Origin: Gemmatimonadota bacterium
GTDB lineage: Bacteria; Gemmatimonadota; Gemmatimonadetes; Gemmatimonadales; Gemmatimonadaceae
Direction of reading: 5' to 3'
Length of the DNA stretch: 13,174 bases
Assembly: GCA_003222065.1 (NCBI GenBank)
Contig: QHUV01000014.1
Span: forward strand, 1-13,174
Shown: positions 1,266 through 13,174 of the stretch, piece after piece
How positions within the stretch are numbered: position 1 is the stretch's first letter
How the letters are laid out: each line of letters begins with the position of its first letter
Program-made: the position numbers and the translations under genes
The notes under the pieces: model-generated
What the model was told of the DNA's origin: nothing
Database searches by the model: none
What the model saw: only the letters and a program-made list of their open reading frames with translations

Positions 1266-2171
1266 ATGATGGTTCTCGCCGGCGCGGCTTTAGTGCTGCT
1301 GCCGTCGCCGGCGTACGCATGGACCCCCGGTACGCATGTCTTTCTCGGCGAAGCCGTGATGCGATCACTGGATCTGCTGCCGAGCGCGATCGCCGAGCTT
1401 CTTCGAGCCTATCCGTACGACTTCCTTTATGGGTCGATTGCCGCGGATACGAGCATCGCGAAAAAGTACGCTCCGGTCGGCCGTCATTGTCATTCGTGGA
1501 CGGTCGGACTCGAGATCTATGACGGGGCCGAGGACGATGCGCTGCGCGCTTTCTCGTTAGGCTACCTGGCGCATCTCGCGGCGGACGCGGTGGCGCACAA
1601 TTACTTCGTGCCGAAGCAGCTGGCAATCACCTCCAGTACGTCTTCCCTGGGGCACAGCTACTGGGAGAGTCGATTCGAGACGCACCTCGGCGAACGTTAC
1701 AGTAGGCGCGCGCGTGACTTGATCACGCTGGATCACTCCCGCTCGGACGGGCTCCTCGACCGCATTCTGAGTCCGACAATCTTCAGCACATCGACCAATC
1801 GCCGGATATTTCGAGGTATGGTCGTCGTCGCCGACTCGGAATCGTGGCAACGGATCTTTCAATTGATGAAGGAGAACAGCCGCTGGGATCTCGCCGATTC
1901 CGAAGTGGGTCGCTATCTCGAACGTTCGTTCGATTACATCGTCGATTTTCTCAGACGGATCGAGAAGTCGGAGCCGTACCGTCTCGACCCTTCGGGCGAT
2001 CATCCGCTCCGACTCGCCAAGCGGGTACGACGCGACGTGCTGAGACGAGAGGGAGACGACGAGCTACGCGAAGAGGCTGAGCGACATTTCGGAATGCCTG
2101 AGTCGGCGTTGACGTTCTCTCAGCAGCTCGAGCTGCCGCTCTACGCGCCGAGTCGCTCCACCAGCAGTTGA
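1266..2171 (+). CDS. Secreted zinc-dependent phospholipase C-like protein
   Basis: This gene encodes about 301 residues and is probably an exported hydrolase of the Zn-dependent phospholipase C superfamily. The first 18 residues are a hydrophobic signal ending AYA, so cleavage would leave Trp19 as the mature N-terminus (WTPGTHVF). In Bacillus cereus PLC and clostridial alpha-toxin the mature N-terminal Trp and a nearby His are zinc ligands, and here GTH follows at residues 22-24. Other likely ligands are Asp52 and Asp61, His74/His76 in GRHCHSW, the HLAADAVAH cluster (His103, Asp107, His111), and His130/Glu134 in GHSYWES. Substrate cannot be told from sequence; nuclease or structural relatives of this fold exist. 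The start is uncertain: TTG 1263, ATG 1266 and ATG 1269 are adjacent, and all give a signal peptide lacking positive charge, whereas upstream in-frame codons would supply Arg/Lys. A GAGGA lies at 1232-1236, too far from these starts. The 3' end overlaps gatB by 31 bases. Confidence 0.8.
   Translation: MMVLAGAALVLLPSPAYAWTPGTHVFLGEAVMRSLDLLPSAIAELLRAYPYDFLYGSIAADTSIAKKYAPVGRHCHSWTVGLEIYDGAEDDALRAFSLGYLAHLAADAVAHNYFVPKQLAITSSTSSLGHSYWESRFETHLGERYSRRARDLITLDHSRSDGLLDRILSPTIFSTSTNRRIFRGMVVVADSESWQRIFQLMKENSRWDLADSEVGRYLERSFDYIVDFLRRIEKSEPYRLDPSGDHPLRLAKRVRRDVLRREGDDELREEAERHFGMPESALTFSQQLELPLYAPSRSTSS
1555..1562 (+). repeat. CGTTAGGC octamer, exact
   Basis: Copy in the phospholipase-like gene, read as Ser-Leu-Gly with the rare TTA leucine codon. 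Confidence 0.7.
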
Positions 2172-3631
2172 TTTACGCGCTTGGGATCAGCGCGGCCGCT
2201 CGACTTCTTCATCACGAAGCCGACCAAGACGCCGAGCAGCTTCTGCTCTCCGCCGGCGTATCGCGCTATTTCCTTCGGATGCTCGGCCACGACCTCGTCG
2301 ATCCAGCCACGCAGCGCGGAGTCGTCACGCACCTGGACAAGCGCCTCTCGTTGGGCAATCTGCGATGCGCGTTCGCCCGTTTGCGCCATGACCGCGAAGA
2401 CGCGTTTGGCGGCGGTGCCACTCAGAACGTCGTCGCGCACGAGGTCGAGGAGCTCGCCGAGATCGGCGGCGCGAACCGGGAAATGAGCGATGTCGATCTT
2501 GCTCGCGTTGAGAGCGGCGCGCACTTCGCCCATCACCCAATTGGCGGCGGCCTTCGCGTCACGGTGGTGCCGGACGACCTCCTCGAAGTAGTCGCCTAAC
2601 GCTTTTGTCGCCGTCAAGACGTCGGCGTCATAGGGGCTCAGGCCAAGCGTTTCGCGGTAGCGCGCTCGCCGTTTGGCCGGAAGCTCGGGCAGCTCTCGAC
2701 GAATCGTCTCGACACGATCGAGCTCGAGGACGAGCGGCGGCAAATCGGGCTCGGGAAAGTAGCGATAGTCGTGACTCTCCTCCTTGGTCCGTGCCGGCCG
2801 GACTGACGCCGTGACGGCATCCCAGAGCATTGTTTGCTGTATGACGCGCTGCCCGGCGTCGAGTATGCCGCATTGCCGCGCGAATTCCGCGTCCAGTGCG
2901 CGTTCGACCGCGGAGAAGGAGTTGAGGTTTTTGACCTCCGTTTTCGTTCCCAGCTGCGAAGCACCAACGCGTCGCGCGCTGATATTAGCGTCGACACGCA
3001 GACTTCCCTCCTCCATGCTGACGTCGCTCACCTCGAGGAACTCGAGAAGCTGCTTGAGTGAACGGAGGTAGGCACCCGCCGCCCGCGACGAGCGGATGTC
3101 CGGCTCGCTGACGATCTCGATCAATGGTACGCCGGCGCGATTCAGATCGATCGCCGTGAGCGTAGGAAAGCGATCGTGAACCGACTTGCCAGCGTCTTCC
3201 TCGATGTGAAGGCGAGTAATGCCGACGCTCGCCGGGGCATCGCCACGGTCGCCCTCGATCGTGAGGCGACCCGCCGTCGCCAATGGGCGGTCGTACTGCG
3301 AGATCTGATAGCCCTTTGGCAGGTCGGGATAGAAGTAATTCTTCCGCGCGAAGACCGACACCAGGTGAACGCGGCAGTCGAGCGCGAGCGCGGCACGGAT
3401 CGCAAGATCGACGACGTGCTCATTGAGCACCGGCAACGCGCCGGGGAGTCCGAGGCACACCGGACAGACCTGCACGTTAGGCGGCGCACCAAACTCGGTC
3501 GAGCAGCGGCAGAATGCCTTGGTACGCGTGAGCAGCTGGACGTGCACCTCGAGGCCGACGACCATCTCATAGTCGAGACGCGACGGCGCGCGCTGGAGTG
3601 AGCTCGTCACGGTTGATTCGCGAGTGCTCAT
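2141..3631 (-). CDS. gatB: Asp/Glu-tRNA(Asn/Gln) amidotransferase subunit B
   Basis: GatB is the tRNA-binding and kinase subunit of GatCAB, which converts misacylated Asp-tRNA(Asn) and/or Glu-tRNA(Gln) to the amidated forms using ATP and ammonia delivered by GatA. The protein has 496 residues, a usual length. Visible marks are YEMVVGLEVHVQL (residues 21-33), the zinc-type cysteines Cys41, Cys43, Cys56 and Cys59 (CRC and CPVC), and DLNRAGVPLIEIVSEPDI in the cradle domain. The C-terminal helical and YqeY-like tail runs from KAAANWVMGEV to KKSSGRADPKRVNQLLVERL, which is the tRNA-contacting part in the family. ATG at 3631 overlaps the gatA stop as ATGA, so translation is probably coupled. About 17 residues precede the conserved core. 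It is the last gene of the minus-strand unit, and its end overlaps the convergent phospholipase gene, leaving no space for an intergenic terminator. Confidence 0.97.
   Translation of the reverse strand: MSTRESTVTSSLQRAPSRLDYEMVVGLEVHVQLLTRTKAFCRCSTEFGAPPNVQVCPVCLGLPGALPVLNEHVVDLAIRAALALDCRVHLVSVFARKNYFYPDLPKGYQISQYDRPLATAGRLTIEGDRGDAPASVGITRLHIEEDAGKSVHDRFPTLTAIDLNRAGVPLIEIVSEPDIRSSRAAGAYLRSLKQLLEFLEVSDVSMEEGSLRVDANISARRVGASQLGTKTEVKNLNSFSAVERALDAEFARQCGILDAGQRVIQQTMLWDAVTASVRPARTKEESHDYRYFPEPDLPPLVLELDRVETIRRELPELPAKRRARYRETLGLSPYDADVLTATKALGDYFEEVVRHHRDAKAAANWVMGEVRAALNASKIDIAHFPVRAADLGELLDLVRDDVLSGTAAKRVFAVMAQTGERASQIAQREALVQVRDDSALRGWIDEVVAEHPKEIARYAGGEQKLLGVLVGFVMKKSSGRADPKRVNQLLVERLGA
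2594..2601 (-). repeat. CGTTAGGC octamer, exact
   Basis: Copy in gatB, read as Ala-Leu-Gly (GCG TTA GGC) in the C-terminal half. Confidence 0.7.
3475..3482 (+). repeat. CGTTAGGC octamer, exact, antisense to its gene
   Basis: Copy in gatB reversed relative to transcription, read as Pro-Asn (CCT AAC) between the two cysteine pairs. Confidence 0.7.
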
Positions 3632-5091
3632 CGATCGGCCTCGCTCCCGAGAGCGCGCTCGAGCGCCTGCGCAACGCCGAACATCCGCTGCTCGGCGAAA
3701 TGCGGCGCCAGGATCTGTCCACCGACGGGGAGTCCACGCACGCGACCGATCGGCAGCGAGAGCGCGGGAATGCCGGCAAGGTTCGCGGTGACGGTGAAGA
3801 CGTCACTCAAATACATGTCGTACGGGTCCGTCTTGGAGCCTGCGGCAAATGCCGGTGTCGGCGTCGTCGGCGTGAAGAGAACGTCGATGCCCGAGGAAAA
3901 CACAGCGGTGAAATCGCGTGCGATCAGCGACCGCACCTGCATCGCCTTCGCGTAATAGGCGTCGTAGTAGCCCGCGGAAAGGACATAGGTACCCAGCAGA
4001 ATTCGGCGCGAGACCTCCGGACCGAAACCACGTGACCGCGTCGCCTCGTACATGGCGCGAAGGCCGTCGTCGGCAACGCGCAGTCCGTAGCGGACCCCAT
4101 CGAATCGGGCAAGGTTCGACGATGCTTCGGCGGGCGCGATAATGTAGTAAACTGGAATCGCCAGATCCGTGCTTGGCAGCGAGACATCGCGAACCGTGGC
4201 GCCAAGGGCGCGGCAGTGGTCGAGTGCACGATCGCAGCGCTCGGCGATCTCACGGTCCAGCTGTTCGGGGTAGTACTCGCGCGGCCGGCCGATGACGACG
4301 CCATCGAGCGAGGTGAGTGCCTGACGATAATCCGGCACGGGGACGTCGCGTGTCGTAGCGTCCTGCGGATCAGGGCCGGCAATTGTCTGCAGTGCGAGCG
4401 CCGCGTCATCGACAGTGGCGCCGAGAACGCCGATTTGATCGAGCGACGATGCAAACGCCACGAGACCGTATCGACTCACGCGTCCATATGTCGGCTTCAC
4501 GCCGACGATGCCACAGAATGCCGCAGGCTGCCGAACCGACCCGCCCGTTTCGGATCCAAGGCCGATTGGCGTGATGCCCGCCGCCACGGCCGCCGCCGAC
4601 CCGCCTGACGAGCCGCCGGGTACGAGGCGCGCGTCGAGCGGATGCTTCGTGCGACCGAATGCGCTGTACTCAGTCGACGAACCCATGGCGAATTCGTCCA
4701 GGTTCGTTTTCGCGACAACGACGGCGCCAGCGTCACGAAGGCGCGAAATGGCTGTCGCCTCGAACGGGCTACGGTAATTCTCGAGGATGCGCGAGCCACA
4801 GGTCGTCGGCGAATCGAGCGTCGCGATGTTGTCTTTCACGACGACGGGTACGCCGGAGAGCGGACCAGCGTCGCCGCTCGCAAGGCGCTTCTCGAGTGCG
4901 GCCGCCTGGTCGCGCACGACGCGTTCGTCGCTCCAGAGAAAGGCGTTCAATCCATCGGCGCCGGCACGTGCTTCGTGGGCGCGCGCGAACGTGTCATCGA
5001 CGATCTGTTGGGGCGAGCGCGCGCCGCGAGCGATCGCTTCGGCAATCGCGGCCGCGCCGCCCGTTGGCTGTGCACGGCCCGCGTGCGTCAC
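3628..5091 (-). CDS. gatA: Asp/Glu-tRNA(Asn/Gln) amidotransferase subunit A
   Basis: GatA is the glutaminase subunit that releases ammonia from glutamine and channels it to GatB. The protein has 487 residues of the amidase signature family. The Ser-cisSer-Lys triad is intact: Lys86 in VVVKDN, Ser161 in PGGSSGGSAAAVA, and Ser185 in GSETGGSVRQPAAFCG. The spacings of 75 and 24 residues equal those of Staphylococcus aureus GatA (Lys79, Ser154, Ser178), which separates it from pseudo-amidases. The start is GTG at 5091, overlapping the gatC stop as GTGA, and the stop overlaps gatB as ATGA. With gatC and gatB it forms a complete gatCAB set, as expected in an organism that makes Asn-tRNA and/or Gln-tRNA indirectly. 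Which of the two substrates is used cannot be told here. Confidence 0.98.
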   Translation of the reverse strand: MTHAGRAQPTGGAAAIAEAIARGARSPQQIVDDTFARAHEARAGADGLNAFLWSDERVVRDQAAALEKRLASGDAGPLSGVPVVVKDNIATLDSPTTCGSRILENYRSPFEATAISRLRDAGAVVVAKTNLDEFAMGSSTEYSAFGRTKHPLDARLVPGGSSGGSAAAVAAGITPIGLGSETGGSVRQPAAFCGIVGVKPTYGRVSRYGLVAFASSLDQIGVLGATVDDAALALQTIAGPDPQDATTRDVPVPDYRQALTSLDGVVIGRPREYYPEQLDREIAERCDRALDHCRALGATVRDVSLPSTDLAIPVYYIIAPAEASSNLARFDGVRYGLRVADDGLRAMYEATRSRGFGPEVSRRILLGTYVLSAGYYDAYYAKAMQVRSLIARDFTAVFSSGIDVLFTPTTPTPAFAAGSKTDPYDMYLSDVFTVTANLAGIPALSLPIGRVRGLPVGGQILAPHFAEQRMFGVAQALERALGSEADR

Positions 5092-5399
5092 GGCGCCGGT
5101 TCCGGATCCTCGTGCGTCGCCAATCGCGGGACGAGAAAGAAACCGTCGCGCAGCGCCGGCGCGAACGAGGCCGGTGGCCTAACGAGCTGAATCGGTGGGC
5201 CCTGATCGCGCCGCAAGCGCATTCCCGGTTGCGCGAGTGCAGTGGCGGCGTCGACCTCGGATGTGTCGACCTTGGACAGCACCTGCATATGCTCGAGAAT
5301 CGACGTCAGCTCGGTTGCCATGATGCGAGCGCGCTCATCGCCAATGCCAAGGCGCGCGAGCGACGCGACGTGACGCACCTCATCGAGTGAGATGCTCAC
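5088..5399 (-). CDS. gatC: Asp/Glu-tRNA(Asn/Gln) amidotransferase subunit C
   Basis: GatC is the small subunit that wraps around GatA and stabilises its contact with GatB. The protein has 103 residues. The N-terminus is typical: VRHVASLARLGI followed by a helical stretch with ELTSILEHMQVLSKVDTSEV, then the extended segment with PPIQLVRPP and the DGFFLVPRL ending seen in the family (usually near DNFFLVPKV). It starts with GTG 5397-5399, which shares bases with the TGA of the upstream helicase gene (GTGA). Its own stop overlaps the gatA GTG. One CGTTAGGC copy lies in the codons for LeuValArgPro and brings an AGG arginine codon. Confidence 0.95.
   Translation of the reverse strand: MSISLDEVRHVASLARLGIGDERARIMATELTSILEHMQVLSKVDTSEVDAATALAQPGMRLRRDQGPPIQLVRPPASFAPALRDGFFLVPRLATHEDPEPAP
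5177..5184 (-). repeat. CGTTAGGC octamer, exact
   Basis: Copy in gatC in a different register (C GTT AGG C), giving Val-Arg with an AGG codon. Confidence 0.7.
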
Positions 5400-7744
5400 G
5401 CGCCAATCTCGCGCTCGAGGTTGGCTTGCGCGACGACGAGCGTCTTGCGGCCGACCGACTCGTCGTCGAAGTCGACTTTCACCTTCAGCTCGCGGCCGGA
5501 CCCAGCTAGTTCGGCAATCGTGCCGGCACCGAACCGGCGGTGGCGCACGCGCGCGCCAACGGCGATCACCGGCGCGTCCTGAGAGACGTTCTCGTCATCC
5601 GGGTAAATCGAGACGCGGGTGACGGGCGTGCCGGGGCGGCGCGCGGCCGCTGATGGCGGAAATGCGGGGTCCCGGTCGTCATCGAACGAGCCGAAGGCCA
5701 TGGCGTCGCGGCCGCCGCGCTGGCCCCCCCAACCTAACGACGGCCCACGCATCGCGGCGCGACCCGAACTTCTCACCTTGATCGTGTTTCGTTTGTCGAG
5801 CAGCGAATCAGGAATAGCGACAAGGAAGCTGGATGGCCGCGACGCCAAGAGCTCACCGTTGCGGCGGCGCTCTTCGGCGTGCGTGAGGTACAGCTTCCGC
5901 TCGGCCCTCGTGATGCCGACGTAGAAGAGCCGACGCTCCTCCTCGAGCTGCGGAGGATCGTCGTAGGCGCGCGCGAGTGGAAAGAGCCCATCCTCGAGTC
6001 CACTGATGAAGACGACGGGGAATTCCAAACCCTTCGCGTTATGCAGCGTCATCAAAGTGACCGCATCGGCATCGGCCTCCAGCGCGTCGACGTCGGCGAT
6101 GAGAGTAGCGCGTTGCAGAAAATGATCGAGTGGCCGGAGACCAACCTCTCCCAATTCGTCGGCGACCAACTCGGCGGCGCCCGTGATGAGCTCCTTCACG
6201 TTCTCGAGGCGATCGGCGGACTCGGGGCCTTCCGCCTTGAGGTAATCGCCGTACTTGATGGCGTCGAAGACCTCACGCAGCAGCTCGTCGACCGGCGTTT
6301 CTTCCGCCAAAACCCGAAATCGATCGATGAGTGAAATGAACTGCGCCAGCGCGACGCGCGCCGCCGGCCGCACCCCCTCGAGAAGGTCCGCGCGTGAGGC
6401 AGCGGCGAACATGGACACGCGTTCGCGACGCGCGACCTCGGCGAGCATGTCCAATGTCGTCTCGCCGAGCCCGCGCTTCGGTATAGCGATGGCGCGGCGA
6501 AAGGCTTCGTCGTCGGCCGGGTTCGCGATGAGCTTCAGGTAGCTCATCAGGTCCCGAATCTCACGCCGATCATAGAAACGCACGCTGCCGACGAGTCGAT
6601 ACTGGATCGTGTGGCGACGAAGGGCTTCCTCGAGCGCACGGCTCTGCGCGTTCGTGCGATACAGGACCGCGAAGTCGCGGAGGTCGAGGTTCTTCGTGGC
6701 CCGTCGCGTGGATAGCTCGTCGACGATCCACTCTGCTTCGTCGCGTTCATCCAAGGCGCGCAGCGCGGTGACAGGCTCACTTCCGCCTTGTGTTGGGCGC
6801 AGCGTTTTGCCCATGCGACCAGTGTTGGCGGAAATCACGGCGTTCGCGACATCGAGAATCGGCGGCGCGGAGCGATAGTTCTCCTCGAGCCGCACGATCG
6901 AAGCGGCGGGAAAATCCTTGTTGAAGTCGAGGATGTTGCGTATGTCGGCACCCCGCCAGCCGTAGATGGACTGGTCGTCGTCGCCGACAACACAGACGTT
7001 GCCTTCGTCGCCGGCGAGTAGCCGCACAAGCTGGTACTGCGCGCGATTCGTGTCCTGATACTCGTCGACGAGCACATAGCGGAAGCGAGACCGGTACGAC
7101 GCGAGCTGCGACGGGTTCTCGCGGAGTAGCCTAACGGGAAGGACGAGCAGGTCGTCGAAGTCGACGGCGTTCGCGAGGCGCAGGGCGTCGCCGAGATCGT
7201 GATAGATCGGGGCAACGGTGCGAGAGAAGGGATCCATCGCCAGCGACTCGTACTCGGGCGGCGCGACCAACGCGTTCTTCGCATCCGAGATCGCCGATTG
7301 AATCGCGCGGGGCGCATACTGTTTGGACGAGACGCGATGCCGCTCCATCAATCGTTTGATGACGGCGAGCGAGTCGTCCTGGTCATAGATGGTGAATGCG
7401 GCGGTGCGCTCGACGAGTCGTGGCGCGGCGCGCAGCATCCGTGCTCCGACAGCGTGAAATGTCCCGATCCACATGCCAGCGGTCGGACGGCCGAGCAGGC
7501 GCTCAATGCGATCACGCATCTCGCCCGCGGCCTTATTCGTAAACGTCACGGCAAGAATCGAGTGCGGGTCGACCCCGTGCACCTCGATGAGCCGAGCAAT
7601 ACGCATGGTAAGGACGCGCGTTTTGCCGGAGCCGGCGCCGGCGAGGACGAGCAGGGGGCCGTCGCGATGCAACACGGCCTCACGCTGCGCGGGATTCAAT
7701 CCACCGAGGAGGGACTCGTCGGGCAAAGTCGATGCTTCCATCAT
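5396..7744 (-). CDS. pcrA: UvrD/PcrA-family superfamily 1 DNA helicase
   Basis: This is a 3'-5' DNA helicase of 782 residues, used in nucleotide excision repair, in clearing recombinase filaments and in restarting or unwinding DNA. Motifs in order are the Q motif (LNPAQREAV, 16-24), Walker A AGAGSGKT (35-42), motif Ia VTFTNKAAGEM, Walker B VDEYQDTN (226-233), motif III GDDDQSIYGWRG (254-265), motif IV LEENYRS (286-292), motif V TLHNAKGLEFPVVF (566-579) and motif VI FYVGITRAERKLYLTHA (607-623). The last 55 residues (VGARVRHRRFGAGTIAEL onward) form the Tudor-like C-terminal domain of PcrA/UvrD that contacts RNA polymerase in known members, and they favour PcrA over Rep. A Gly/Arg/Asp-rich linker lies at about 655-705. 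ATG 7744 overlaps the histidine kinase stop (ATGA), and a second ATG follows directly. Confidence 0.96.
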   Translation of the reverse strand: MMEASTLPDESLLGGLNPAQREAVLHRDGPLLVLAGAGSGKTRVLTMRIARLIEVHGVDPHSILAVTFTNKAAGEMRDRIERLLGRPTAGMWIGTFHAVGARMLRAAPRLVERTAAFTIYDQDDSLAVIKRLMERHRVSSKQYAPRAIQSAISDAKNALVAPPEYESLAMDPFSRTVAPIYHDLGDALRLANAVDFDDLLVLPVRLLRENPSQLASYRSRFRYVLVDEYQDTNRAQYQLVRLLAGDEGNVCVVGDDDQSIYGWRGADIRNILDFNKDFPAASIVRLEENYRSAPPILDVANAVISANTGRMGKTLRPTQGGSEPVTALRALDERDEAEWIVDELSTRRATKNLDLRDFAVLYRTNAQSRALEEALRRHTIQYRLVGSVRFYDRREIRDLMSYLKLIANPADDEAFRRAIAIPKRGLGETTLDMLAEVARRERVSMFAAASRADLLEGVRPAARVALAQFISLIDRFRVLAEETPVDELLREVFDAIKYGDYLKAEGPESADRLENVKELITGAAELVADELGEVGLRPLDHFLQRATLIADVDALEADADAVTLMTLHNAKGLEFPVVFISGLEDGLFPLARAYDDPPQLEEERRLFYVGITRAERKLYLTHAEERRRNGELLASRPSSFLVAIPDSLLDKRNTIKVRSSGRAAMRGPSLGWGGQRGGRDAMAFGSFDDDRDPAFPPSAAARRPGTPVTRVSIYPDDENVSQDAPVIAVGARVRHRRFGAGTIAELAGSGRELKVKVDFDDESVGRKTLVVAQANLEREIGA
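5732..5739 (-). repeat. CGTTAGGT, one-base variant
   Basis: Variant in the pcrA linker, read Ser-Leu-Gly; only the last base differs. Confidence 0.5.
7129..7136 (-). repeat. CGTTAGGC octamer, exact
   Basis: Copy in pcrA, read Pro-Val-Arg-Leu, with AGG and CTA codons adjacent. Confidence 0.7.
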
Positions 7745-8889
7745 CGAAGTATAACGTCGAACGTAGCGCCGGAATCAGCAGCAGCGAGGACCAATTTGCC
7801 GCGATGGTTTTCCTCGACGATGCGACGCGCGAGTGAGAGACCGATGCCCCACCCGCTCTGCTTTGTCGAGAATCCAGGCTCGAACACGCGAGCGCGCAAG
7901 CCGGAGGGAATACCAGGTCCATTATCGGCGACGCGAATACGCACGCCTCCATCGGATAGCCGTGCCGTGGAAAGGCGGATGCGTCCGCCGCGACCGGCAA
8001 GCGCGTCGATGGCGTTCTTGGCAAGTACCTCGATCGCCCACTCGAGCAGCACCGGATCGCCCTCGATCATCGGCGGTGCCCCGTCGTGCGCAACGTCGAT
8101 GGCGATTGTGTTCGCGAGCGTCGGTACGCGGGCGCGAAAGTACGTGGCGACGCGATCGACGAGCGCCGTGACGTCGACGGGCTCACACTTCGGCTCGCGA
8201 CCGATTCGCTCGAAGCGATGGGCCACGCGATCGAGCCGCTCGAGATCAGCACTCATGTGCGTCGCAGCGGCATGCGTCGACGGATCCTCGGCCCGCTCCT
8301 CGAGTAGCTCGATCCAGCCGGCCAAGCTCGAGAGCGGCGTTCCAAGCTGGTGCGCGGACTCACGCGCCATACCCGCCCAGATACGTTCGCGGGCGACGTT
8401 GCCCCGTACGCGAATGACGTAGAATCCGACGATGAGGAGAATCGCCGCCGTCGCCACCTGCAGGACCGGCACGATCCGAAGCCCCTCGACGAGTGGCGTG
8501 TTACCGAAGTGAATCTGGCCGAGCATTGGATCGACGAGCGGCGGATTCTCGGCGTCGAGCCGACGAATGTAGGCGCGCAAGCGCGCGTCTTTGGTTACGT
8601 CAGTGACCTCGAACGGAAGATTGGCCGCGGCCGTCGGATTCCCCGCCGCGTCGGTGACGATGACCGGCACGCCCTGCTCGACGATACTGCGCGATAGACC
8701 GAGCAACGCCTGCGTGCCCGCACCCTCGGTGGTGTCGCCTAACGCGTGGTAGATACGGGCGTAGATTCGGCTAGAGCGCTCGGCCTCGAGTCGCAGGTCG
8801 CCGACGACATTATGGGTATACCAGAGAATCGACCCGAGGAGCAGGGCGATGAGCGCGGCGAAGATGAGCTCCGGGCTCCCGCGGCGCAT
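7741..8889 (-). CDS. Membrane-bound sensor histidine kinase
   Basis: This 382-residue kinase autophosphorylates on His and passes phosphate to a response regulator. Layout: membrane helix 1 at residues 7-26, an extracytoplasmic sensor region of about 115 residues with no recognised fold, and membrane helix 2 at 142-160. A dimerisation/phosphoacceptor helix follows with the H box ESAHQLGTPLSSL (His180), and then the ATPase domain with N box EWAIEVLAKNAIDAL (Asn292), G1 ADNGPGIP (321-328), F box FEPGFSTK and G2 SGWGIGLSLARRIVEE. All catalytic boxes are intact. The H box reads HQLGTPL instead of the common HE-R-TPL, so the acidic residue after His is Gln. The frame stays open upstream inside serS, but that part is shadow; ATG 8887-8889 begins four bases after the serS stop. 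No response regulator is adjacent on this strand. The stimulus is unknown. Confidence 0.92.
   Translation of the reverse strand: MRRGSPELIFAALIALLLGSILWYTHNVVGDLRLEAERSSRIYARIYHALGDTTEGAGTQALLGLSRSIVEQGVPVIVTDAAGNPTAAANLPFEVTDVTKDARLRAYIRRLDAENPPLVDPMLGQIHFGNTPLVEGLRIVPVLQVATAAILLIVGFYVIRVRGNVARERIWAGMARESAHQLGTPLSSLAGWIELLEERAEDPSTHAAATHMSADLERLDRVAHRFERIGREPKCEPVDVTALVDRVATYFRARVPTLANTIAIDVAHDGAPPMIEGDPVLLEWAIEVLAKNAIDALAGRGGRIRLSTARLSDGGVRIRVADNGPGIPSGLRARVFEPGFSTKQSGWGIGLSLARRIVEENHRGKLVLAAADSGATFDVILR
8737..8744 (-). repeat. CGTTAGGC octamer, exact
   Basis: Copy in the sensor region of the histidine kinase, read Ala-Leu-Gly. Confidence 0.7.
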
Positions 8890-8893
8890 GCGA

Positions 8894-10168
8894 TCAGCTG
8901 AGCCGGTCAGTCCCCAAATACGGCCTGAGTGCCTCGGGGACGACGACCGTGCCGTCGGAACACTGATAGTGCTCGAGCAGGCAGGCGATGGTGCGCGGGA
9001 AGGCGAGCCCTGACCCGTTGAGTGTATGCACCAAGCGGGGCTTCTCGCCTTTCGCGGCGCGGAAGCGAATGTTGGCGCGTCGCGCCTGAAAGTCGGTGCA
9101 ATTGCTGCACGACGACACCTCGAGCCAAGCACCGACGCCGGGCGCCCACGCCTCGAGGTCGTAGGTCATCGCCGATGAGAAGCCGGTGTCGCCCGCGGCG
9201 AGAAGCTTGCGTCGATATGGAATGCCTAACCGCTCGAGAGCCGTCTCGGCGTGCCTAGTGAGCAGCTCGAGCTGGTTCGCCGAATCTTCCGGGGTGGAGT
9301 AGCGAACGAGCTCCACCTTGTCGAACTCGTGGGTTCGCAGAACGCCCCGAGTGTCCTTGCCCGCCGATCCCGCCTCGCGCCGGAAGCATGGCGTATACGC
9401 GACAAATCCCTTGGGCAACATGTCGGCGTCGACGATCTCGTCGCGATAGAGATTCGTCACCGGCACTTCCGCGGTCGGAATAAGAAACAAGTCATCGACC
9501 GTTACCGAATAGACGTCGTCCTCAAATTTCGGGAGCTGGCCAGTGCCCGTCAGTGTCGCCCGGTTGACCAGAATGGGCGGCCAAATCTCCTCATAGCCAT
9601 GCTCGCGACTGTGCAGCTCGATGAAAAAGTTGATCAACGCCCTAACGAGCCGCGCGCCTAACGCACGATAGACGACAAAGCCGGACCCACTGATCTTTGC
9701 CGCGCGTTCGAGATCGATGATGCCGAGGGCGGCTCCGACCTCCCAGTGCGGGCGCACACCCGCGGCGTCGCGAGGCGTTCCCCACTCACGAACGACGCGG
9801 TTGCACTCTTCCCCGCCCGCTGGCACCCCAGGGGCAGTAACGTTAGGCAGCACGAGCAGCATCGCCCGCAACTCACCTTCGACGGCGTCCAGCTCGCCCT
9901 CGAGGCGCGCGATCTCCTCACCGAGCTCGCGACCGCTGGCAATGAGCTCGTCCGCCGGTTCCTTGGCCTTCTTCCGGCGCGCGACCTCCTGCGAGTTGGT
10001 GTTGCGGGCCGCCTTCCGCTCCTCGACGGCCTGAATAAGCGTCCGCCGGTCGCGATCGAGATCCTCGCCGCGATCGATGAGTTGCAGCAGGGCGTCGTCC
10101 GCGCCGCGGCGGCGCATGGCGTCGCGCAGCAGGTCGACCTGCTCGCGCAGGGCCCGCATGTCGTGCAC
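8894..10168 (-). CDS. serS: Seryl-tRNA synthetase
   Basis: This class II synthetase charges tRNA(Ser), and tRNA(Sec) where present, with serine. The protein has 424 residues, the usual length. The N-terminal long coiled-coil arm, which grips the tRNA variable arm, spans about residues 25-105. Motif 1 lies near GYEEIWPPILVN (191-202), the serine-recognition TAE at 232-234, motif 2 at 260-287 (CFRREAGSAGKDTRGVLRTH with EFDKVELV) and motif 3 at 380-401 (HTLNGSGLAFPRTIACLLEH). GTG 10166-10168 is preferred over ATG 10159. GGAG lies five bases upstream, and the resulting N-terminus (M-H-D-M-R-A-L-R) lines up with the family's usual M-L-D-hydrophobic-R start. It sits 11 bases after the lipoprotein stop. 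The gene holds four copies of the CGTTAGGC word or near variants, the densest cluster in the window. Confidence 0.98.
   Translation of the reverse strand: MHDMRALREQVDLLRDAMRRRGADDALLQLIDRGEDLDRDRRTLIQAVEERKAARNTNSQEVARRKKAKEPADELIASGRELGEEIARLEGELDAVEGELRAMLLVLPNVTAPGVPAGGEECNRVVREWGTPRDAAGVRPHWEVGAALGIIDLERAAKISGSGFVVYRALGARLVRALINFFIELHSREHGYEEIWPPILVNRATLTGTGQLPKFEDDVYSVTVDDLFLIPTAEVPVTNLYRDEIVDADMLPKGFVAYTPCFRREAGSAGKDTRGVLRTHEFDKVELVRYSTPEDSANQLELLTRHAETALERLGIPYRRKLLAAGDTGFSSAMTYDLEAWAPGVGAWLEVSSCSNCTDFQARRANIRFRAAKGEKPRLVHTLNGSGLAFPRTIACLLEHYQCSDGTVVVPEALRPYLGTDRLS
9224..9231 (-). repeat. GGTTAGGC, one-base variant
   Basis: Variant in serS, read Arg-Leu-Gly; only the first base differs. 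Confidence 0.5.
9640..9663 (-). repeat. Tandem pair: CGTTAGGC (9656-9663) and CGTTAGGG (9640-9647)
   Basis: Two same-direction copies 16 bases apart in serS, the first read Ala-Leu-Gly and the second Val-Arg, so the two use different registers within ten codons. Confidence 0.65.
9841..9848 (+). repeat. CGTTAGGC octamer, exact, antisense to its gene
   Basis: Copy in serS opposite to the other three there, read Pro-Asn-Val (CCT AAC GTT). Confidence 0.7.
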
Positions 10169-10179
10169 GATCGCTCCGG

Positions 10180-10776
10180 TCAGTCCTTCGGGATACCCGA
10201 AGGGATGAGAGAGAAAAAGCCGCAGTTCGGATCGACGGTGAAACGCGTCCTCACGGTGCGCGTTCCCGAATCAATGCCCATCACTTCAATCTTGGCGTAG
10301 ATCACATTGCTAAAAACGGAGAATCCGCACGCCGTCGGATCAGTGGTGGAGACCACGAAGACGTCGCCCACTTTCGTGGTGAACAGAGAGTCCGTCACGT
10401 AGCCGCTTTGTGGCGCCTTGAGGAGCGCATCGAACGAGCTGGTGGAGCGCTGCATCGAGACGCTGTGCGCCGCCGAGAGCCCACCCGCGACATAACGAAC
10501 GGAGTAACTCGTCGCGTTGCCCTGGCCGTCGATATCGAACGCCAGATCAAACGTAAAGCTCGGGTTGACGACGACCGCCTGACGACCGAAGAGCCAGAGC
10601 CCGGTCGGAGCGTCGACAGGAGTACCGTTGATCGCGTACACAATAAGCGTGTCGGTCGCGTTCTCGGTTTGCGCTTTCGGGTGCGTCAAGCTGCTGCACG
10701 CCGTCATGCCGACGAAGACCGCGAGCGTCGTCGCGACAAGGGCGAGCCTTCGCGGCGCGTGCAATCTCGATGTCAT
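10180..10776 (-). CDS. Putative lipoprotein, function unknown
   Basis: This gene encodes 198 residues that I cannot assign to a family. The N-terminus has basic residues (RLHAPRR), a hydrophobic stretch (LALVATTLAVFVG) and the lipobox-like MTAC, so Cys27 would be lipidated after signal peptidase II cleavage. This predicts a membrane-anchored periplasmic or outer-membrane protein. The mature part is rich in Ser/Thr/Val and alternating hydrophobic patterns that suggest beta structure, with Cys150 and Cys185 as a possible disulfide. It is the first gene of the minus-strand unit, 11 bases from serS, and a good promoter lies 54 bases upstream of its ATG. The start has no clear Shine-Dalgarno. The lipobox position before Ala-Cys (Met-Thr) is not ideal but acceptable. 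Confidence 0.75.
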   Translation of the reverse strand: MTSRLHAPRRLALVATTLAVFVGMTACSSLTHPKAQTENATDTLIVYAINGTPVDAPTGLWLFGRQAVVVNPSFTFDLAFDIDGQGNATSYSVRYVAGGLSAAHSVSMQRSTSSFDALLKAPQSGYVTDSLFTTKVGDVFVVSTTDPTACGFSVFSNVIYAKIEVMGIDSGTRTVRTRFTVDPNCGFFSLIPSGIPKD

Positions 10777-10829
10777 GATGACGGTGATGGAGTCGAGGAA
10801 CCGATGTGCGGATGACCGGCCAATGGCGT

Positions 10830-10858
10830 AGGATATTCGGACGTCATGGAGAGTTCAA
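10830..10858 (-). promoter_or_regulatory. Predicted sigma70-like promoter of the lipoprotein-serS-pcrA-gatCAB unit
   Basis: On the minus strand TTGAAC (10853-10858) and TATCCT (10830-10835) are separated by 17 bases. That is five of six consensus bases at -35, a fair -10 and optimal spacing. Transcription should begin near 10823, giving an untranslated leader of roughly 47 bases before the lipoprotein ATG. No other spacing or promoter-like gap occurs in the rest of the unit, so it probably drives all seven genes. Confidence 0.6.
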
Positions 10859-10876
10859 GCGATTATCAGCGCTTGA
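10855..10876. promoter_or_regulatory. Inverted repeat between two divergent -35 boxes (candidate operator)
   Basis: TCAAGCG (10855-10861) and CGCTTGA (10870-10876) form a perfect 7-base inverted repeat around an 8-base AT-rich centre (ATTATCAG). Each arm contains the TTGA of one -35 box, so a dimeric protein bound here would touch both promoters at once. Part of the symmetry is forced by two -35 boxes facing apart, but the extra CGC on both arms is not. Confidence 0.4.
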
Positions 10877-10901
10877 CTTCGACATTCACGATCTCTAGCT
10901 T
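10873..10901 (+). promoter_or_regulatory. Predicted sigma70-like promoter of the Roadblock-receiver-manC unit
   Basis: TTGACT (10873-10878) and TAGCTT (10896-10901) are 17 bases apart. The -35 is near consensus and the -10 keeps the key T, A and final T. Transcription would start around 10908, only about 20 bases before the ATG at 10929. The leader would carry the strong ribosome site. Confidence 0.5.
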
Positions 10902-10915
10902 CGCCACCACTTTCC

Positions 10916-10922
10916 GGGAGGA
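10916..10922 (+). promoter_or_regulatory. Strong Shine-Dalgarno for the Roadblock gene
   Basis: GGGAGGA lies six bases before ATG 10929. It is the best ribosome site in the window and fixes this start over the longer overlapping frame that opens at 10846. Confidence 0.75.
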
Positions 10923-10928
10923 CTCGAG

Positions 10929-11282
10929 ATGGCCAGCATCCGGGATCTCGTCGCTGCAATTCGACAGCGCGAAGGAGTCGAAGCAGCGGTCGTGCTCGGG
11001 CGCGACGGACTGCTCATCGACGGTCAGGCCGTCCCGGGGATCGATCCGGAGCGCATTGCCGCGCACATTCCGCCAATCATCGGCCCCGCCGATGAGCTCG
11101 GGGCAACGTTGCGCCGCGCGGAGCTACTCACTGCCGTGCTCGAGTATCGCGGAGGCGTGGCGATCGTTTCGGCGATGTCGTCGGAGGCAATTCTGTTCGT
11201 TCTTCTAACGCCGCAAGCGAACATCGGCCAGCTCTTGTTCGAGTTGCGCCGCAATCGCGACCACATCGCCGCCCTCGTGTAG
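10929..11282 (+). CDS. Roadblock/LC7-domain protein (MglB-like)
   Basis: This gene encodes 117 residues covering a single Roadblock/LC7 domain. The pattern is an N-terminal helix (SIRDLVAAIRQREGVEAAVV), a strand pair with GRDGLLIDGQAV, a helix with DPERIAAHIPPII, then ELLTAVLEYRGGVAIVSAMS and a final strand/helix ILFVLLTPQANIGQLLFELR. Such proteins dimerise and regulate small Ras-like GTPases, as MglB acts on MglA in Myxococcus and Thermus polarity control. No GTPase gene is visible next to it, so the partner is unknown. The gene leads a plus-strand operon: the receiver-domain gene begins two bases after its stop, so the two are probably made together and may act in one pathway. Confidence 0.85.
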   Translation: MASIRDLVAAIRQREGVEAAVVLGRDGLLIDGQAVPGIDPERIAAHIPPIIGPADELGATLRRAELLTAVLEYRGGVAIVSAMSSEAILFVLLTPQANIGQLLFELRRNRDHIAALV

Positions 11283-11284
11283 CC

Positions 11285-11713
11285 ATGGTCGCGGACAGGA
11301 GCGCGGCCGAGCCGACGTTTCACGTCCTGGTCGCGGATGATGAGCCGCACATCGGCCGCATCATCAAGATGAAGTTGGAGCAGGGGCCATTTCGCGTCAC
11401 GCTCGCCTATGACGGACGCGAAGCGCTCGATTTCCTCCGGCGCGATCCGGACGTCGATCTCGTGCTGCTCGATCTCATGATGCCCCACTTGAGCGGCTTG
11501 GACGTGCTTGCCGCCATGAAGGCGGACACGCGCCTTCATGATCTGCCGTCCATCATCCTCACGGCGGCGGGACAGGAACAACAGCATCATCGGGCAATCG
11601 AGCTCGGTGCGAGTGAATTTCTGACGAAACCGTTTAGTCCGAAAAAGCTCTACGCGCGGGCAGCGGAGCTCGTCGGCATCGGCGGCGAGGAGTCCAGCAC
11701 GGACGCATCGTGA
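11285..11713 (+). CDS. Single-domain response regulator (CheY-like receiver)
   Basis: This gene encodes 142 residues, a lone receiver domain with no output domain and a short hydrophilic tail (GGEESSTDAS). The acidic pocket ADDEP (Asp18, Asp19), phosphoacceptor Asp63 in LVLLDLMMPHLSG, switch Thr93 in IILTAAG and Lys115 in FLTKPFSPKKL are all present, so phosphorylation should work. Its kinase is not identified; the membrane histidine kinase at 7741-8889 is on the opposite strand in a different unit and is only a possible partner. It follows the Roadblock gene by two bases without its own clear ribosome site, and its stop overlaps the manC GTG as GTGA. It would signal by protein-protein contact, possibly with the Roadblock protein. 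Confidence 0.93.
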   Translation: MVADRSAAEPTFHVLVADDEPHIGRIIKMKLEQGPFRVTLAYDGREALDFLRRDPDVDLVLLDLMMPHLSGLDVLAAMKADTRLHDLPSIILTAAGQEQQHHRAIELGASEFLTKPFSPKKLYARAAELVGIGGEESSTDAS

Positions 11714-12753
11714 GCACGTCCGACATCTGGGTGGTAGTACTGGCTGGCGGCGTGGGCTCTCGCTTTTGGCCGCTCAGTACGCCCGGTCGGCCAAAGCAAC
11801 TGCTGCCGCTCGTCACCGACAAACCGCTCCTGGTCGACGCGGTCGACAGAGTAGCATCGATGGTCCCTGGTTCACAAACGCTCATTCTCACCAATGCGTC
11901 GCTCGTTCCGGCGATGGCGAAGGTTTTACCGGCAGTGCCGCACGAGAACCTCATCGCCGAACCGCGGCCGAGCGGCACGGGAGCGGCCCTCGCCTGGGCC
12001 GCCGAACTGATACGGGCGCGCGCTGGCAACGAGGCGGTGATGATCTCGCTGCACGCGGATTGGGCGGTCGAGGATGCGGACGGCTTTCGATCCACGCTTC
12101 GGGCCGCGGCGGTCGCCGCGGTGCGACATGAGAGCTTACTCACGGTGGGCGTCGTGCCTTCGCGACCGGATCCCGGCTTCGGATACATCCAGCCGAACGG
12201 AGAAGTCGAGCCTCGCCTGTGGCGCGTTGCCCGGTTTATCGAGAAGCCCGACCGCGCGCGCGCGGAAACGCTGTGGCGCGAGGGATGTCTCTGGAACTCG
12301 GGCATCTTCGTGTGGCGGGTTGGCGACTTTCTCGACGAGGTGCGCCGACACACACCAGAAATCGCGCCGGCGCTCGCGGCGCATCCCAGTGACGCCGCGG
12401 CGTTTTTCAATGCGGTGAAGCCGGTTTCTGTGGACGTCGGGGTGCTCGAGCGCAGCGCCCGCGTGATGGTCATGGCCGGGGATTTCGGCTGGGACGACGT
12501 CGGTACGTGGGGTTCGCTGCGCCGCGTGCGAGCGGTAGACGGCGCCCGTAATGCGACAAGCGGCGACGTCTTCGCCGTGGCCTCGCAAGGTAATGTGGTG
12601 CATGCGGAAGACGGCCAGGTGGTGTTGTATGGAGTCTCCGATCTGGTCGTCGTCGTCCGCGAAGGCCTGGTGCTCATCACGACGGTCGATCGCTCGACTG
12701 ATTTGAAGACACTCATCGACGCCTTGCCGGCGGTGCTGCGGGATCGGCCGTGA
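11710..12753 (+). CDS. manC: Mannose-1-phosphate guanylyltransferase
   Basis: This enzyme makes GDP-mannose from mannose-1-phosphate and GTP for polysaccharide, glycan and glycolipid synthesis. The protein has 347 residues and only the nucleotidyltransferase part; the C-terminal isomerase domain of bifunctional ManC/AlgA proteins is absent, as in short monofunctional enzymes. Visible marks are the nucleotide-binding LAGGVGSRFWPLSTP (11-25) with RPKQLLPL, the EPRPSGTGAAL segment, the FGYIQPNGEV region, the sugar-site FIEKPDRA, LWNSGIFVWR, and GDFGWDDVGTWGSL near the C-terminus. Related hexose nucleotidyltransferases share parts of these, but the whole set fits GDP-mannose pyrophosphorylase best. 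GTG 11710 overlaps the receiver gene stop (GTGA), and the stop overlaps the next gene in the same way. A GGA lies six bases upstream of the start. Confidence 0.93.
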   Translation: MSTSDIWVVVLAGGVGSRFWPLSTPGRPKQLLPLVTDKPLLVDAVDRVASMVPGSQTLILTNASLVPAMAKVLPAVPHENLIAEPRPSGTGAALAWAAELIRARAGNEAVMISLHADWAVEDADGFRSTLRAAAVAAVRHESLLTVGVVPSRPDPGFGYIQPNGEVEPRLWRVARFIEKPDRARAETLWREGCLWNSGIFVWRVGDFLDEVRRHTPEIAPALAAHPSDAAAFFNAVKPVSVDVGVLERSARVMVMAGDFGWDDVGTWGSLRRVRAVDGARNATSGDVFAVASQGNVVHAEDGQVVLYGVSDLVVVVREGLVLITTVDRSTDLKTLIDALPAVLRDRP

Positions 12754-13174
12754 GCGGCCTCTATCTGTACGACGACGCCCGTGCGCGCGAGTTCGAGCCG
12801 TTCGCGCTCACGCGGCCGGTGTCGGACATGGTCGCCGGTACGGTGCCGCAGCGAGCGCGCTGGCAGACAGTTTTGCAGATGCCCGTCGCCGGAGTGATCC
12901 CGTCAGCTCATCTGGCGGACTTCGATGAGGTCGCCTCGGGCCCGTCGGCGCGGGGGCGCATACCCGCCGGTTCGGTCATCGCCAATGCGCGGTTTGCGCC
13001 GAGGCTCAGCACCGTCCATCGGTTTGCGCCTAACGATAACAGCGAATCGACGGCCGACCTCTGGCTGTCCGGCGGCCGAGTCGTGGCGGCGCGAACGGCT
13101 CGCGAGCTGGCGCCGGACTACTTCTCCGACGGTCGCCGCGCGATCGACGATCTGGGCCGGTCCGGAGTCGAGAC
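12750..13174 (+). CDS. GlmU-like sugar nucleotidyltransferase, N-terminal part (cut by window edge)
   Basis: The gene starts at GTG 12750, within the manC stop (GTGA), and stays open to the right edge, giving 141 visible residues. The N-terminus LYLYDDARAREFEPFALTRP followed by VSDMVAGTVPQRARW matches the start of the alternative bacterial GlmU-type family (putative UDP-GlcNAc pyrophosphorylase/acetyltransferase), which begins with a short hydrophobic strand, DD, a Leu/Phe-rich 'LTRPV-D' segment and a basic Trp helix. It lacks the LAAGKGTRM loop of classical GlmU. The catalytic centre and any left-handed beta-helix acetyltransferase domain would lie outside the window, so the reaction is an inference from family and from the neighbouring manC. 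Confidence 0.7.
   Translation, partial: MSGLYLYDDARAREFEPFALTRPVSDMVAGTVPQRARWQTVLQMPVAGVIPSAHLADFDEVASGPSARGRIPAGSVIANARFAPRLSTVHRFAPNDNSESTADLWLSGGRVVAARTARELAPDYFSDGRRAIDDLGRSGVE
13028..13035 (-). repeat. CGTTAGGC octamer, exact, antisense to its gene
   Basis: Copy in the GlmU-like gene, read Pro-Asn (CCT AAC) on the plus strand. Confidence 0.7.

Follow-up and report, generated by a model that had tools for sequence, protein, structure and literature searches.

Why should a single asymmetric octamer recur so often in one short stretch of a bacterial genome, and what could be reading it? The stretch analysed here (the window) comprises the 13,174 nucleotides at positions 1 to 13,174 of contig QHUV01000014.1 from a Gemmatimonadota bacterium (assembly GCA_003222065.1), and the octamer is CGTTAGGC. 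The nine exact copies reported by the initial annotation are all present, three on the forward and six on the reverse strand, where 0.27 are expected and at most 2 were reached in 200 dinucleotide shuffles. That annotation had suggested a dispersed functional tag and named uptake sequences, Chi, FtsK-orienting sequences, HIP1 and methylation targets as possible analogues, leaving the choice between them undecided. Our results support a tag that is genome-wide and independent of reading frame and codon usage; they give no support to polar use of the FtsK or Chi type or to N6-methyladenine (m6A) modification, and the analogy with DNA uptake sequences, although the closest, is unproven. We tentatively favour the view that, in a subset of the Gemmatimonadales, CGTTAGGC serves genome-wide as an asymmetric word for self-recognition and would resemble an uptake sequence.

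The enrichment is not limited to the window. The genome to which it belongs (G000; 3,732,969 bases in 736 contigs, 81.66% complete) harbors 2,065 copies, 1,079 forward and 986 reverse, vs. 226 copies of the reversed word (112 and 114). With 0.68 copies per kb, compared with 0.55 for its genome, the window is ordinary in word density. Nor is the count close to what codon usage predicts. The codon-corrected expectation was derived from codon usage of the same genes outside the word, genes being crude open reading frame (ORF) calls made by length and GC content at third codon positions, with no annotation, and it was exceeded in all word-rich samples. Observed and expected counts were 145 vs. 2.31 (63-fold) in the genome G018, 34 vs. 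0.92 and 21 vs. 0.37 in the same-genus genomes G001 and G002, 10 vs. 0.35 in G022 and 7 vs. 0.19 in the window, while six word-poor Gemmatimonadota loci contained no copy vs. a codon-corrected expectation of 0.48. G018 was treated as Gemmatirosa kalamazoonensis KBS708, a type strain from soil and a member of the window's family in the order Gemmatimonadales, whose sequences comprise 5,311,527, 1,106,233 (NZ_CP007129), 1,040,503 and 20,952 bases. Of 101 TTA codons in the sample from Gemmatirosa, 70 fall inside CGTTAGGC. According to the crude gene calls, the word supplies 23 of 299 stop codons in Gemmatirosa, 6 of 153 in G032 and 10 of 230 in G001, compared with 0 of 151 and 0 of 173 in the word-poor genomes G017 and G015. 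Ranked by z-score, CGTTAGGC comes first among octamers in 380 kb of Gemmatirosa (220 copies vs. 4.03 expected), 220 kb of G032 (78 vs. 3.57) and 300 kb of G001 (184 vs. 4.67). No copy occurs in 200 kb of G017 or in 220 kb of G015, genomes similar in GC content to G018 and G001, respectively.

Abundance of the word differs sharply between genomes. Among 149 genomes, including that of the window, 31 carry 168 to 4,469 copies and 118 carry 1 to 79; we set the line between word-rich and word-poor at 150 copies. The same-genus genomes contain 3,411 (G001) and 2,940 (G002) copies. Within a 395-genome sample of the phylum, no genome listed from outside the order, whether of the same class or the same phylum, exceeds 67 copies, and one genome has zero. 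On a tree of 44 sequences of the helicase PcrA, the word-rich trait is patchy among genera: it requires 11 changes of label, at least six of them forced by well-supported branches, vs. a mean of 14.9 changes for shuffled labels (11 or fewer changes arose in 13 of 500 shuffles). G017 and G032, which the tree supports as sisters, have 26 and 2,415 copies, respectively. Six Gemmatimonadota loci (L003-L008, 53-69% identical) are among the best pcrA relatives from named genomes, and the tree scores its six named loci as word-poor from 12-22 kb each. A different octamer dialect in the word-poor genomes was rejected, no comparable word being present in the 200 kb of G017 or the 220 kb of G015. One further genome, G047, is filed with the word-rich G022, G067 and G084 in genus g21 and has 3 copies only; its GC content is 0.70 in 22 kb vs. 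0.65 in G022, and it is perhaps misplaced.

The exact copies and variants in the window, with the corresponding positions in relatives, are the following.

1555..1562, forward strand: exact CGTTAGGC; the aligned position in G001 and G002 has the same word.
2594..2601, reverse strand: exact CGTTAGGC within a gatB-like ORF; common to G001 and G002.
3475..3482, forward strand: exact CGTTAGGC on the strand opposite the gatB-like ORF; the site reads TATTCGGG in G001, TGTTCGGC in G002 and CGTTCGGC in G018 and G015.
5177..5184, reverse strand: exact CGTTAGGC within a gatC-like ORF; unshared.
5732..5739, reverse strand: variant CGTTAGGT, 16-fold over-represented in G001; G002 has the exact word here.
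6037..6044, forward strand: variant CGTTATGC, 7-fold over-represented in G001; missing from the initial annotation.
7129..7136, reverse strand: exact CGTTAGGC within a pcrA-like ORF; common to G001 and G002.
8737..8744, reverse strand: exact CGTTAGGC within a histidine-kinase-like ORF; absent at the G001 position.
9224..9231, reverse strand: variant GGTTAGGC, possibly chance (7 vs. 2.2 expected in G001).
9640..9647, reverse strand: variant CGTTAGGG, 5-fold over-represented in G001.
9656..9663, reverse strand: exact CGTTAGGC within a serS-like ORF; in G001 the same strand reads CGTTAGGT, a variant.
9841..9848, forward strand: exact CGTTAGGC on the strand opposite the serS-like ORF; common to G001, with TGTTAGGC in Gemmatirosa.
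13028..13035, reverse strand: exact CGTTAGGC close to the window end; common to G001.

Conservation of single sites was compared with that of permuted control words, in genome pairs that overlap and are not independent. In the same-genus genomes (g1, 76-77% identity), 26 of 68 copies are common vs. 12.1 expected, and of 10 copies in two genus g21 pairs with 85% identity, 9 are common vs. 3.5 expected. A third g21 pair, at 96% identity, is uninformative (4 of 5 vs. 4.1 expected). Ten other word-rich pairs have 7 of 53 copies in common, with 7.2 expected; taken by itself, the small pcrA region (5 of 9, 3 of 5 and 4 of 4 copies conserved) had exaggerated conservation relative to the larger comparison (26 of 68). 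Since sharing is above control in g1 and g21 and at control level in the ten others, density is maintained while single sites turn over. Sharing between Gemmatirosa and G032 (1 of 10 copies vs. 1.9 expected, a small number) is compatible with separate accumulation.

The three near-misses listed by the initial annotation are real (CGTTAGGT at 5732, GGTTAGGC at 9224 and CGTTAGGG at 9640). As a class, near-misses are weak evidence: the window has 23 words with any one mismatch vs. 10.2 expected, a level reached in 1 of 200 shuffles. The sites at 5732 and 9640 and the unlisted one at 6037 may be second-class sites, because CGTTAGGT, CGTTAGGG and CGTTATGC are specifically over-represented in the same-genus G001. 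Counts in 300 kb of that genome are 34 vs. 2.1 expected for CGTTAGGT, 33 vs. 4.5 for CGTTATGC, 13 vs. 1.4 for TGTTAGGC and 10 vs. 1.9 for CGTTAGGG, and its one-base neighbours total 356 vs. 242 expected. The variant tolerated in G018 is TGTTAGGC (26 vs. 0.8), which G032 also has in excess (18 vs. 0.6). Most remaining one-base neighbours are near or below expectation, with CGTTGGGC in G018 at 45 vs. 16.2. The tolerated variants, or dialects, are lineage-specific. In the flanks of 212 Gemmatirosa copies, purines are preferred at +1 (A 0.28, G 0.51) and codon periodicity is visible; nothing else stands out.

The layout of the copies is close to random. In Gemmatirosa, the coefficient of variation of spacing is 0.97, pairs closer than 100 bp number 21 vs. 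11.8 expected, and no periodicity of sites was seen in the samples; copies per 20 kb are near Poisson, with a dispersion of 1.06-1.13. The orientation skew about the origin and terminus envisaged by the initial annotation was not observed. Among the 20-kb samples along the Gemmatirosa chromosome, the first nine together have 65/55 copies on the two strands and the last nine 47/45 (P 0.41 and 0.92), the replichores being taken as halves of the chromosome record with origin and terminus assumed from coordinates. Two apparent biases were set aside. A gene-end bias, visible as an excess in the last fifth of genes, comes partly from copies forming the stop codon, and a non-coding excess is inconsistent, densities per kb being 0.84 vs. 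0.54 for the chromosome of Gemmatirosa, 0.48 vs. 0.85 for its plasmids and 0.28 vs. 0.37 for G032.

The word is also found on mobile DNA. Three stretches of the two Gemmatirosa megaplasmids contain 13, 17 and 18 copies per 20 kb (48 in 60 kb). The 20,952-base Gemmatirosa contig (L001, G018:C1) repeats itself at an offset of 14,997 bases, and the circular element is therefore probably of about 15 kb rather than 21 kb. It carries 12 copies in 15.0 kb, has genes for an integrase of phage type and for a DUF5906 primase, and is possibly a phage in the view of the genome authors (PMC3974934). Its primase is 48-49% identical to those of two tailed-phage contigs. One of them, L316, was reached only via its primase and has 14 copies in 13.7 kb, with 0.27 expected. 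The other, L319, overlaps L303 and covers more of the same contig, with 8 copies in 14.2 kb and 0.20 expected; because two closely spaced words led to L303, its density is subject to ascertainment. Each of the two contigs has genes for a small and a large terminase subunit, and the families differ. They also carry CGTTAGGT (2 copies each), one of them CGTTATGC (2 copies) and the Gemmatirosa element TGTTAGGC (2 copies); at such small numbers, these variants may follow the dialects seen in hosts. Among 55 viral loci counted, 45 had no copy and 5 had one, and among the viral contigs matched by patterns (8, 1 and 23 stretches) only L303 had dispersed copies as its top octamer. Searches of viral sequences with two element proteins yielded nothing useful, and a three-primase profile found no further phage. 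A separate viral contig, L289, has 14 copies, of which 12 crowd into a short-period array towards one end (L289:12141-12490). A link with gene transfer agents or HK97 prophages was rejected, PF05065 being found in 0 of 14 word-rich genomes.

What could maintain such a word? To our knowledge, the only other non-palindromic words in such strong genome-wide excess are the uptake sequences of two proteobacterial families. CGTTAGGC resembles the DNA uptake sequences of Neisseriaceae and the uptake signal sequences of Pasteurellaceae in being a short asymmetric word with thousands of copies, on both strands and in several frames within genes, in exceeding codon usage genome-wide, and in having dialects in related lineages. 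Competence machinery, namely type IV pilus and ComEC genes, is likewise present but non-discriminating. Under the uptake-like reading, a sequence-specific DNA-binding protein would recognize CGTTAGGC, most likely during DNA uptake through a type IV pilus and ComEC, and related DNA would be preferentially taken up and recombined. New mutational matches would then spread by biased import, so that density persists while individual sites come and go, and plasmids and phages resident in the cell would acquire the tag as well. Molecular drive through biased import is accepted for the uptake sequences of Haemophilus and Neisseria. The type of excess, the asymmetry, the lack of polarity, the dialects, the patchy gain and loss, and the turnover with kept density fit uptake-like drive best.

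Several observations weigh against this reading. Of 38 genomes, 36 have ComEC (all but G067 and G134) and all 38 have the PilT family, word-rich and word-poor genomes alike, and this machinery does not explain the patchiness because word-poor genomes have it too. No general gradient of near-matches is seen in Gemmatirosa, where the 24 one-base neighbours total 331 vs. 335 expected with one strong exception (26 vs. 0.8); the abstract of a study on uptake sequences mentions a gradual pattern of near-matches. No inverted-pair or terminator arrangement is prominent among close pairs, and we found no report of competence or natural transformation for these bacteria in the open-access literature. 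The two tailed-phage contigs and the 15-kb element have full density, the phages carrying the word undepleted at 0.56 and 1.02 copies per kb. This result on mobile DNA weakens the uptake reading because Neisseria islands often have drastic reductions in uptake sequences, as described in an excerpt of PMC7371117. The same excerpt provides a precedent, in that Pasteurellaceae prophages accumulate uptake sequences as they coevolve with their host.

The main rival, and the strongest alternative to the uptake reading, is an intracellular tag. DNA carrying the octamer would be spared by a helicase-nuclease or defence system of the host, or would switch it, in the manner of Chi or of a licence that protects from degradation. 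We consider this somewhat unlikely. It would account for the presence of the word on the chromosome, two megaplasmids, the 15-kb element and two tailed-phage contigs, as any replicon, phages included, would gain from it, and for the few dialect variants on phages and element. Chi is itself an asymmetric octamer that, like CGTTAGGC, occurs on the DNA of phages and hosts alike. Unlike Chi, CGTTAGGC has a 63-fold codon-corrected excess and no replichore bias, and AddA-like frames are mostly missing from word-rich genomes: frames of more than 1,000 residues occur in 2 of 23 word-rich vs. 8 of 15 word-poor genomes, RecBCD-specific models not having been run genome-wide. In a family scan, which covered the G031 pair alone, AddA and AddB models matched below their cut-offs. 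A link to Chi and AddAB was rejected on the rarity of these frames and on the PDDEXK_1 domain, present in 7 of 17 word-rich vs. 8 of 15 word-poor genomes. Polar use of the FtsK or Chi type is disfavoured because strand counts are even in each half of the chromosome and AddA-like frames are rare in word-rich genomes; an FtsK-orienting sequence, in particular, would be strongly polar about the origin, here an assumed one, and CGTTAGGC is not.

One further candidate reader was considered. A UvrD-type helicase of about 970 residues has a DnaQ-like DEDDh exonuclease domain inserted before its C-terminal helicase part (L267:5149-8073, L268:5783-8686 and L272:4980-7922). Matches to this fusion occur in 62 of 149 genomes and are commoner in word-rich ones (21 of 31 vs. 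41 of 118; Fisher P 0.0018, uncorrected for shared ancestry), which speaks for the intracellular tag. The fusion is missing, however, from G018 and G027, and G032 and G053 are not among the matches; all four are word-rich and at least 97% complete, and the fusion was rejected as the reader. No candidate examined strictly follows the word, and a reader protein was not found, no search for a minor-pilin receptor having been made. A more specific version of the intracellular tag is doubtful. Here CGTTAGGC would be an unmodified password, such that host degradation or defence spares frequent carriers, phages and satellites have evolved to carry the host dialect, and integron cassettes come pre-tagged through the attC heptamer. 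If true, cells would tell self from non-self by how densely a word occurs, independently of methylation.

It is unlikely that the word is a by-product of biased mutation, repair or modification acting on any resident DNA, with no benefit from the word itself. Such a process would fit its occurrence on every replicon type examined. A parallel exists in cyanobacterial HIP1 (GCGATCGC), which is also patchy within its phylum at about one copy per 1-2 kb and for which an excerpt of PMC4390886 presents a repair-bias model. HIP1 is palindromic and associated with an orphan methyltransferase, according to the same excerpt, whereas CGTTAGGC is asymmetric. The specificity of the word is also sharp, most one-base neighbours in Gemmatirosa being at or below expectation. 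5-Methylcytosine is poorly detected by the single-molecule real-time (SMRT) method. The published SMRT methylome of Gemmatirosa lists RGATCY, ATGCAC and CCAGN7TCA as m6A motifs (PMC3974934); CGTTAGGC is not among them, which speaks against both HIP1-like modification and the methylation target proposed in the initial annotation, within a list that does not cover 5-methylcytosine.

Still less probable is a binding site for an abundant nucleoid, segregation or replication protein needing sites every 1-2 kb or so. All replicons carry the word at broadly similar density, spacing is near random, and density is kept despite turnover, all of which would suit such a protein. No periodicity or replichore polarity was seen, however, no binding protein was identified, and the sister genome G017 manages without the word (0 in 200 kb, 26 genome-wide).

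Dispersed integron recombination sites are a very improbable explanation. The R box of an integron attC site is GTTRRRY, and the heptamer GTTAGGC of the word is identical to boxes in Gemmatimonadota arrays. Arrays that we take to be attC-like, recognised by eye rather than with an attC finder, have GTTAGGC at both ends in G127 (L164, G127:C5) and on a Gemmatirosa megaplasmid (L165:337-5214). An IntI gene lies a few kb from the Gemmatirosa array. The dispersed copies differ from attC sites in lying within conserved genes and in having no hairpin or L-box context in 212 flanks, with no further conserved bases beyond the +1 purine preference. An integron link as driver was rejected, IntI not being associated with the word (above cut-off in 16 of 31 word-rich vs. 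57 of 118 word-poor genomes, P 0.84), and the match between attC-like boxes and the dispersed word is an unexplained coincidence.

An origin by chance, through codon usage or as a local repeat, for which nothing speaks beyond the weak one-mismatch count in the window, is ruled out by the genome-wide counts and is left with practically no probability given the codon-corrected excess and the zero copies in the G017 and G015 samples of similar GC content.

CGTTAGGC thus looks like a previously unnoticed "self" label. Among the open-access papers listed, we found no earlier report of it, nor one linking the octamer or its heptamer to Gemmatimonadota. It would add a third, unrelated phylum to those with such a word, here near all-or-nothing between close relatives, as in G017 with 26 copies and its sister G032 with 2,415. 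Together with the dialects and tagged phages, this offers a comparative system in which gene-content association could find the reader gene, which would tell apart uptake, repair and defence. The origin and loss of DNA self-recognition would thereby become directly testable.

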